Part shown: piece after piece, positions 39,767-42,808 of the stretch
Layout: every line of letters starts with the position of its first letter
How positions within the stretch are numbered: the stretch's first letter is position 1
Source: Parahaliea maris
GTDB lineage: Bacteria; Pseudomonadota; Gammaproteobacteria; Pseudomonadales; Halieaceae
DNA: 64,000 bases
Assembly: GCF_008064665.1 (NCBI RefSeq)
Contig: NZ_VRZA01000001.1
Coordinates: forward strand, 496,001-560,000
Direction of reading: 5' to 3'
Position numbers and translations under genes: made by a program
The notes under the pieces: model-generated
What the model saw: the letters and a program-made list of their open reading frames with translations, nothing else
What the model was told of the DNA's origin: nothing
The model's database searches: none

Positions 39767-40744
39767 ATGAGCGACCACGATTCCGGTGCCCACCGCCGTT
39801 CGGCGTTGCGCACGGTGCAGATGGAAGCCGATGCTGTCGCCGCCCTTGCCCAACGTATCGACGCCAGCTTCGACCACGCCTGTGAAATCCTGCTGGCCAC
39901 CCGGGGGCGCGTCATCGTCACCGGTATGGGCAAGTCCGGCCACATCGCCCGCAAAATTGCCGCCACCCTGGCCAGCACCGGCACCCCGGCCCACTTCGTC
40001 CACCCCGGCGAAGCCAGCCACGGGGACATGGGCATGATCACCTCCGAGGACTCCGTCATCGCCCTGTCGAACAGCGGCAAGGTGCCGGAAGTCGTCACCC
40101 TGCTGCCACTGCTCAAGCGCCTCGGCACGCCGGTGATCAGCATGACCGGTGATCCCACCTCGCCCCTGGCCCAGGCCTCCGACGCCCACCTCAACACCGG
40201 GGTGGAAACCGAGGCCTGCCCCCTCGACCTGGCGCCCACTTCCAGCACCACCACGGCCCTGGTCATGGGCGACGCCCTGGCTATCGCCCTGCTGGAGGCG
40301 CGGGGCTTCACCGCCGAGGATTTCGCCTTTTCCCACCCCGGCGGCACCCTGGGCAAGAAGCTCCTGCTGAAAGTGGAAGACGTCATGCGCGGGGACAACC
40401 AGGTGCCCCGGGTAGCGCCCCAGACACCCCTGGCCGAGGCCCTGCTGGAAATCAGCGCCAAGGGACTGGGCATGACCACGGTCGTTGACGAGGCAGGCCA
40501 CCTGGACGGTATCTTTACCGACGGCGACCTGCGCCGGGCCATCGACGCCAGGATTGACATCAACGCCACCGCGATCAGCGAACTGATGAGCCGCGGCCCG
40601 AAAACTGTCACCCCCGGCATGCTCGCCGCGGAAGCCCTGCGCATCATGGAAGAAAACCGTATTACCTCGCTGGTGGTACTCGATGGCTCCGCCGTGGTCG
40701 GGGTAGTGCACCTCATGTCCCTGCTGCAAGCGGGGATTGCCTGA
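39767..40744 (+). CDS. kdsD: D-arabinose 5-phosphate isomerase KdsD
   Basis: Converts ribulose 5-phosphate to arabinose 5-phosphate, the first step to Kdo. It has 325 residues. The SIS domain at about 20-180 contains [20 protein letters not shown] and the catalytic-region [12 protein letters not shown], with [20 protein letters not shown] after it. Two CBS domains lie at about 205-325, ending [20 protein letters not shown]. Its stop overlaps the start of the kdsC remnant. Confidence 0.96.
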
Positions 40745-40938
40745 TGAGCACCGACCAGACCGCCTCCCGGGTTCGCCTGCTGGCCCTGGATGTCGACGGC
40801 GTGCTTACCGACGGCTGCATTTACTACGGCAACGATGGCGAGGAGCTCAAGCCCTTCAACATCAAGGATGGCCTTGGCATCAAGCTGCTGCTGCAAGCGC
40901 GCGGACTGAAAGAACAACTGGAGTCCGACTTCCGCTGA
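40744..40938 (+). pseudogene. kdsC: KdsC (Kdo-8-phosphate phosphatase), internally deleted remnant
   Basis: KdsC normally has about 170-190 residues and removes phosphate from Kdo-8-phosphate. Here an intact start (ATG 40744) leads into the HAD motif [19 protein letters not shown] and [10 protein letters not shown], then jumps to [17 protein letters not shown], which looks like the C-terminal helix of the family, and stops after 64 codons. About 110 residues with HAD motifs II-IV are missing, in frame. The overlaps with kdsD and lptC are kept. The frame is open, but it cannot make a functional phosphatase. A true deletion or an assembly collapse are both possible. Confidence 0.88.
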
Positions 40939-41498
40939 TGCAACGCGCAGCCCTGTCCATTTTCCTGACCATCGGTCTGGTCCTGCTCGCCAGTTTTTAC
41001 TGGCAACCGGGCGGCAACCCCGACGCCGACCCGGAAACCGTGAAGCGCCGGATGGCGCTGCCGCAGACCTATCTGGAGCAGGTGCGCGCCTGGCAGTACG
41101 ACGCCGACGGTGTTCTCAAGGAAGTCCTGGAAGCAGACCGAGCCGACTATTATGCCCGCCGGGATACCTCGGAACTGCAGCAGCCGCGCTTCTATTCCCA
41201 CGACGGCAACGACCGCTCCTGGACGGCGACGGCGGAGCTCGGCACCCTGCGCCACAGCCCGGGAATACTGCAATTGCGGCGCAAGGTGCTGCTGACCAAC
41301 GACCAGACTGGCGGCACGCTATCGACCCAGGCCATGACGCTGAACACCCGTAAAAACACAGCGAGATCACAGGTGCCTGTCACAATTACCCAGAATGGGA
41401 GTATCCTGCGCGCCGATGGCATGACAGCAAACCTCAACAGCGAACGCATTGTCATGAGCCCCAATGTGGAGAGTACCTATGTTCAACCGCAGCCCTGA
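40938..41498 (+). CDS. lptC: LPS export protein LptC
   Basis: A bitopic protein that passes LPS from LptB2FG to LptA. The start at ATG 40938, inside the kdsC stop (TGATG), gives 186 residues. An N-terminal membrane helix at about 4-22 (AALSIFLTIGLVLLASFYW) precedes the periplasmic beta-jellyroll, with YLEQVRAWQYDADGVLKEVL and a C-terminal ADGMTANLNSERIVMSPNVE. It overlaps lptA by 20 bp. Confidence 0.92.
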   Translation: MQRAALSIFLTIGLVLLASFYWQPGGNPDADPETVKRRMALPQTYLEQVRAWQYDADGVLKEVLEADRADYYARRDTSELQQPRFYSHDGNDRSWTATAELGTLRHSPGILQLRRKVLLTNDQTGGTLSTQAMTLNTRKNTARSQVPVTITQNGSILRADGMTANLNSERIVMSPNVESTYVQPQP

Positions 41499-42105
41499 CA
41501 GGGCTTCCGGAGCGCAGCGCGCAACGCCTCTGGCCACCCTGCTGCTGGGCGCTCTGCTGCTCGTCACGGAAAGCGCCCGGGCACTGCCCGAGGACCGCAA
41601 CGAGCCGATTCGCATTTCGGCCGACAAGGCCCTGCGGGACGAAAAGCAGGGCTTTACCGTTTACCAGGGCAACGTGACCATGCAGCAGGGCACCCTGCGG
41701 ATCGACGCGGCCAAGGTCACCGTATTCCACCAGCAGAAAGAAGCCGACCACATCAAGGCCGAGGGCCAACCCGCCCACATGCAGGAACAGCCCGAGGCGG
41801 AAAAAGGGTTGATGCACGCCCGCGCCGAAGTGATCGAGTACTTCAAGGCCGAAGAACGCGTCCTGCTCCAGCGCAACGCCAGCGTCGAACAGGAGGGCTC
41901 CCGGGTGACCGGTGACTCCATCGAATACTTTATCGGCCAGCAGTTGCTGCGGGCGGATTCCGCCGCCAGCAGCAGCGGCCGGGTGGAAGTCGTCATCCCG
42001 GCCAACGCCCTGCCCAATAACCAGGCGGCCAGCGACCCCAATACCCCAACGGGAGAATCGCCGGAACCGGAGGAAGCGGCCAGTGGCACAACTGAAGGCC
42101 AGTAA
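41479..42105 (+). CDS. lptA: Periplasmic LPS bridge protein LptA
   Basis: Forms the periplasmic filament that carries LPS to LptDE. ATG 41479 ([20 protein letters not shown]) with GGAGAG upstream gives 208 residues. A signal peptide at about 1-36 ends SARA, before [16 protein letters not shown]. OstA-fold blocks are [20 protein letters not shown] and [20 protein letters not shown]. The tail is Pro/Glu/Thr-rich. It overlaps lptC and lptB. Confidence 0.94.
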
Positions 42106-42808
42106 CCTGGCCAAGGCCTATCGCGGGCGGCAGGTGGTTCACGACGTCTCCCTGCAGCTCGAGAGTGGGCAGATAGTCGGCCTGCTCGGCCCCAACGGGG
42201 CCGGCAAGACCACCTGTTTCTACATGATTGTCGGCATTATCCGGGCCGACAACGGCAGTATCGTACTGAACGGAGAGGACATCACGGCCCTGCCGATGCA
42301 CGAACGCGCCCGCCGCGGTATCGGCTACCTGCCCCAGGAGGCCTCGATCTTCCGCAAGCTCACGGTGGGCAACAATATCCTGTCGATCCTGGAGACCCGC
42401 CCCGATCTCAACCGCAGCCAGCGGCTGGAGCGCTGCGACGCCCTGCTCGAGGAATTTCACGTCACCCACTTGCGCGACAGCCTCGGCCAGTCCCTGTCGG
42501 GCGGAGAGCGCCGGCGGGTGGAGATCGCCCGGGCCCTGGCCACCGAGCCCGACTTCATCCTCCTCGACGAACCCTTTGCCGGGGTGGACCCGATTTCAGT
42601 CGCAGACATCAAGCAGATCATTCGCCAGTTGCGCGACCGGGGCATCGGCGTCCTGATCACCGACCACAATGTCCGGGACACTCTCGACATCTGCGAGAAC
42701 GCTTTCATTGTCGGGGAGGGGCATATCATTGCCGAGGGGGGCACCGAGGCCATCCTTGCCAACGAGGCCGTCCGCCGGGTCTACCTGGGCGATCAGTTCC
42801 GTCTCTAG
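42083..42808 (+). CDS. lptB: LPS export ABC transporter ATPase LptB
   Basis: The ATPase of LptB2FG. The start at GTG 42083 with GGAGGAA upstream gives 241 residues, identical in length to E. coli. The Walker [10 protein letters not shown] is at about 37-45, followed by [13 protein letters not shown] (Q-loop), signature [16 protein letters not shown], Walker [14 protein letters not shown] and switch DHNVRDTL. It overlaps lptA by 23 bp. LptFG are not in the window, as is usual. Confidence 0.97.

Follow-up and report, generated by a model that had tools for sequence, protein, structure and literature searches.

A kdsC remnant in Parahaliea maris and a candidate replacement family for the Kdo-8-phosphate phosphatase KdsC

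The stretch of 64,000 nucleotides of Parahaliea maris analysed here (the window; contig NZ_VRZA01000001.1, positions 496,001 to 560,000 of the forward strand) raises the question of how the phosphate of 3-deoxy-D-manno-octulosonate 8-phosphate (Kdo-8-phosphate) is removed in a cell whose kdsC gene is broken. The open reading frame at 40744–40938 (+ strand) is an in-frame kdsC remnant of 64 codons which lies between intact kdsD and lptC genes. The genome to which the window belongs (G000, 4.85 Mb, 98.8% complete) also encodes a phosphatase of the HAD superfamily resembling N-acylneuraminate-9-phosphatase (NANP), and this family was found exclusively in KdsC-less genomes of our sample. We consider it probable that the kdsC remnant reflects a non-orthologous displacement, in which the NANP-like phosphatase took over the hydrolysis of Kdo-8-phosphate before kdsC decayed through a deletion that preserved the frame.

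The remnant is made up as follows.

40744..40938, + strand: kdsC remnant, 64 codons, 108 codons fewer than in the congeners
40744..40887, + strand: kept N-terminal part of KdsC, codons 1–48, with HAD motif I (match to the TIGR01670 profile, alignments to KdsC in the PDB)
40885..40899, + strand: deletion junction, CTGCTGCTGCAAGCG; the blastn pieces to the loci L028 and L034 end and start there
40897..40938, + strand: kept C-terminal tail of KdsC, 13 residues and the stop codon, matching ARGQKATLESGFL of the KdsC of P. aestuarii

Both by homology and by its place between kdsD and lptC the remnant derives from KdsC (YrbI), with which it shares motif I and the C-terminal tail; it differs in lacking 108 codons including the catalytic motifs II–IV. 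The NCBIfam KdsC models align to residues 5–52 only, with 63.8 bits (cut-off 208) and, for TIGR01670, 60.4 bits (curated cut-off 106.95; profile positions 1–42 of 154 only), and the KdsC chains of the PDB cover about residues 5–55. As the segment with ITGR and MGDD is gone and only motif I remains, the remnant cannot be a phosphatase. In contrast, both genus-mates searched (G001 and G002) have a full-length kdsC, of 170 codons in G001, counted from the internal start used, and of 172 codons in P. aestuarii (L034, in G002), which is the closest named relative by kdsD (86% identity of KdsD). When the operon is compared to both congeners with blastn, the alignment breaks at a single place corresponding to one gap of 324 nt; the difference to the P. 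aestuarii gene is exactly 108 codons and the frame is kept. In the congener alignment the lost segment holds IITGR, a lysine region, and MGDD, which we take to be HAD motifs II, III, and IV. The tail matches the C-terminus of the congeners' KdsC and is therefore KdsC. These comparisons bear out the sequence-only reading of this locus, a model's note made without database searches, which had described an internal in-frame deletion of about 110 residues including motifs II–IV, a C-terminus resembling that of KdsC, and an intact start, stop, and overlaps: the remnant overlaps kdsD upstream and lptC downstream by 1 nt each, with TGATG at either side. The same reading had drawn attention to a 12-mer shared with the end of kdsD. 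Although the 12-mer CTGCTGCAAGCG does occur twice (40721–40732 at the kdsD end and 40888–40899), we reject the kdsD copy as the cause of the deletion, as neither end of the deletion lies there and repeats of this kind are no rarity (some 12-mer direct repeat is present in 32 of 636 segments of 401 bp across the 64 kb). To judge from the relatives, both deletion ends probably fell within kdsC itself, at a short microhomology resembling CTGCTGCA.

Apart from KdsC the pathway appears complete. kdsA, kdsB, and waaA are each present in one copy over cut-off and kdsD is present, so that the genome classifies as KdsC-less and Kdo-making. A profile search for a second KdsC in the genome found none over cut-off; besides the remnant it returned only frames of 866 and 415 amino acids, which were too weak (20.1 and 15.6 bits) to be accepted as a diverged KdsC. 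Thus, the need for another phosphatase, already deduced from the sequence, stands.

Genomes of this order often lack kdsC. KdsC is found over cut-off in 45 of 57 relatives. Among the 12 others, one has a KdsC match truncated at the edge of its contig (G033), four yielded no kdsD (G006, G011, G020, and G031, 66–88% complete), and in seven kdsD is followed by lptC or lptA without an intervening kdsC (lptA of L122 was read by eye); all seven keep kdsA. Adjoining kdsC is also missing from 23 of 80 named loci fetched by kdsD. Eleven of these 23 genomes have kdsC elsewhere (L057, L062, L063, L065, L067, L068, L070, L073, L075, L077, and L088, from Thalassolituus, Oleispira, Saccharospirillum, and others), and in the remaining 12 no match exceeds the cut-off. 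The kdsC state changes 12 times on a kdsD tree of 78 genomes. Two names on this tree may be wrong: L087, titled Salinisphaera sp. G21_0, groups with Endozoicomonas with strong support, and L100, titled Klebsiella pneumoniae MAG MH-08apr19-278, is found near Saccharospirillum, like G044, which is listed in the order of the window, and is possibly a mislabelled bin.

The candidate replacement enzyme in the same genome went unnoticed in the sequence-only reading. Its family was discovered in a scan of ten genomes for HAD_2 phosphatases, in which P. maris had a member, as did six of the seven KdsC-less relatives but neither of the two congeners. The P. maris gene (contig C21, 151428–152165, + strand) codes for 250 amino acids. 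By sequence and by fold, predicted from a 10-row alignment (the single-sequence prediction was poor, pLDDT 42.4), its closest solved relatives are NANP proteins (HDHD4; PDB 2w4m, 4knw, and 2gfh). The candidate is nevertheless only 22–24% identical to them in structure alignments, comes from KdsC-less marine gammaproteobacteria, and has Kdo-8-phosphate as its proposed substrate; its best NCBIfam match, TIGR02253, stays below the membership cut-off (118.6 versus 169.75 bits). D8, D10, T136, K169, D194, and D199 are invariant in 10 family sequences and are presumably the HAD catalytic residues of the four motifs. The reaction of NANP, removal of the terminal phosphate from a 2-keto-3-deoxy sugar acid with nine carbons, is chemically close to the hydrolysis of Kdo-8-phosphate. 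Going by these solved relatives, the candidate may well act on Kdo-8-phosphate.

The distribution of the family points in the same direction. With a family profile (A1) we searched 80 genomes whose kdsC state was known, 17 KdsC-less and 63 KdsC-bearing. Members were found in 11 genomes with 374–458 bits, the next match having 79.7 bits, and none of these 11 (G000, G007, G026, G027, G030, G046, G049, G060, G063, G064, and G065) has KdsC over cut-off. Hence the family is present in 11/17 KdsC-less and in 0/63 KdsC-bearing genomes. Among the held-out genomes, which were not used in the discovery, the counts are 4/9 and 0/61 (Fisher p 1.4e-4); when only one of the two Oceanicoccus genomes, whose proteins are identical, is counted, 3/8 KdsC-less genomes have the family (p 1.1e-3). 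Three genera with both kdsC states split cleanly (G000 versus G001 and G002, G030 versus G003, and G007 versus G032). On the kdsD tree of 78 genomes the family changes state eight times, and in three settings of 20,000 draws each, no random placement of eight gains put all of them on KdsC-less lineages. A broken copy was seen in Endozoicomonas ascidiicola (G080, NZ_LUTV01000003), a genome without KdsC over cut-off: a C-terminal NANP-like piece of 49 residues (L256, about 1501–1656) directly adjoins a frame with an integrase core (PF13683).

In P. maris the NANP-like gene sits in a 19-kb stretch with a GC content of 55.6%, compared to 64% in the window and 59–66% in 13 other loci of the genome. 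This stretch carries Phd/ParE and HigB/HTH_3 pairs and a tRNA-Pro gene; no integrase was noticed in it. The neighbours of the gene vary between genomes, as judged by eye from the frames listed. In viral contigs no mobile carrier of the gene was confirmed, and one match of 30% is found on a Paenibacillus plasmid.

We suggest the following course of events. The NANP-like gene would have been gained in the AT-richer, island-like stretch elsewhere in the genome, and its presence would have made kdsC redundant. Losses of kdsC that left lptC, lptA, and lptB expressed could then persist, and a single internal deletion of 324 nt, in frame and flanked by short CTG-rich microhomologies, would have left the dead remnant of 64 codons. 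The loss would be tolerated because another enzyme hydrolyses Kdo-8-phosphate, and gain would thus have preceded loss. According to passages on an insertion study in Escherichia coli, only those insertions within kdsC that leave lptC expressed are tolerated (PMC6705877, PMC5821084), and this may be the reason why the loss in the window is in frame. For the wider group we are slightly more reserved, but still think it likely that the NANP-like HAD enzymes are a second, unrelated family of Kdo-8-phosphate phosphatases that is spreading among marine gammaproteobacteria and repeatedly displacing KdsC. The P. maris genome would then represent an early stage after the exchange, its old gene being half deleted.

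Several observations weigh against a displacement of KdsC by the NANP-like enzyme. Because KdsC-less genomes served both to find the family and to build its profile, the p value for all 80 genomes (Fisher, 1.2e-9) is biased and the held-out value is the fair one. A sign test on strongly supported branches had 3 pairs only, with 2–3 in one direction and 0 in the other (p 0.25), a number with which significance is unreachable. In the contexts listed and judged by eye, the gene stands beside no recognised Kdo gene. The family tree has no supported branches, tree tests do not reject vertical descent of the new gene (approximately unbiased test, p 0.395 and 0.473), and identities within the family correlate weakly with those of kdsD (Spearman 0.35, p 0.036, 36 pairs). 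Taken together, this weak tracking of kdsD, the varied neighbours, and the AT-richer stretch favour transfer, and we infer that the NANP-like gene was acquired horizontally. Six KdsC-less genomes (G054, G075, G076, G079, G080, and G081) have no intact member; therefore, bacteria can live without KdsC and without this family, and other phosphatases must serve there.

The last point leads to the explanation that kdsC was plainly lost under redundancy. One or more broad phosphatases, either another HAD enzyme or the low-molecular-weight phosphatase encoded behind kdsB, would suffice, and the NANP-like gene would have another substrate and be associated with the loss indirectly. In fact, the genome has 10 PF12710 matches and six PF13419 matches, one of which is the NANP-like gene. 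The low-molecular-weight phosphatase gene (L125, 2268–2750, contig C18; PF01451, 147 bits) follows directly behind kdsB, ahead of a frame identified by eye as MurB-like, and is a further point against the NANP-like enzyme. The same order of kdsB, this phosphatase, and murB is presumably found in KdsC-bearing Pseudomonas, and we keep the gene only within this alternative for that reason. Cof-type HAD proteins (PF08282) were rejected as the replacement, as a full-length single-domain match is present only in G007 and G030 of the six genomes searched. Dispensability of kdsC is also known from E. coli, whose kdsC mutants are viable in the passages cited here (PMC6705877, PMC4086706), and KdsC-less pathways exist in divergent bacteria according to parts of PMC5615194. 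However, redundancy does not predict that the NANP-like family and KdsC exclude each other in the 63 KdsC-bearing genomes and in the three split genera, and we regard it as rather unlikely.

Very improbable, in our view, is an assembly artefact, in which 324 nt between short repeats would have dropped out of the contig while kdsC is full-length in the cell, as the sequence-only reading had considered. The junction is CTG-rich, but the microhomology comprises about 8–12 nt, which is too little for an ordinary short-read assembly to collapse on, the deletion keeps the reading frame exactly, and the rest of the operon is intact:

39767..40744, + strand: kdsD, arabinose-5-phosphate isomerase, intact, 325 amino acids, with an SIS and two CBS domains
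40938..41498, + strand: lptC, intact (PF06835, 107.1 bits)
41479..42105, + strand: lptA, intact (PF03968, 87.7 bits)
42083..42808, + strand: lptB, intact (PF00005, 128.4 bits)

Furthermore, many relatives lack the whole of kdsC next to kdsD, and the genome carries the family that marks KdsC-less genomes in this sample. Proline 37 of the remnant is found in 0 and cysteine 25 in 1 of 51 KdsC rows (selected by motif, with L029 and L034 coming from a single genome). In part of a set of loci (L118, L122, L123, and L049, and KdsC-bearing ones such as L012, L019, L024, L042, and L044) lptC was undetected between kdsD or kdsC and lptA; there it is either missing or too diverged for the profile.

Still less credible is a retained role of the remnant, either as a small functional protein or in coupling the translation of lptC: the start and stop overlaps are preserved and 38 N-terminal codons still have a low dN/dS ratio against the congeners (0.109 and 0.100, from 3–5 nonsynonymous and 8–11 synonymous changes, which are small numbers), yet the ratio between the congeners is lower (0.044), the same holds with the 13-codon tail included (0.098, and 0.20–0.26 for the window), and in Sediminihaliea (L035 and L117) nothing of kdsC remains between kdsD and lptC. 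Constraint in the window therefore looks the same or weaker and mostly reflects the time before the deletion. These small numbers fit a deletion that is recent relative to the species split and was followed by somewhat relaxed selection, and most likely the remnant is a real and fairly recent pseudogene.

A comparable situation has been described for Rickettsia and other KdsC-less bacteria, in which the CMP-Kdo pathway is complete except for KdsC and another phosphatase is proposed; the parts of this report cited here name no single replacement beyond HAD-like hydrolases (PMC5615194), whereas in our sample one family excludes KdsC. Which enzyme dephosphorylates Kdo-8-phosphate without KdsC, also in the viable E. 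coli mutants, is left open in the passages considered (PMC5615194, PMC4086706), and searching titles and abstracts we found no report of a KdsC replacement. New here is a likely replacement family for KdsC. With one named family, which excludes KdsC in the sample and has a chemically fitting relative, the question becomes testable by one enzyme assay. The finding also calls for caution in annotations and metabolic models that would call a hole in the Kdo pathway, and P. maris would offer a case from nature in which an enzyme of an essential pathway has been displaced while the old gene can still be seen.
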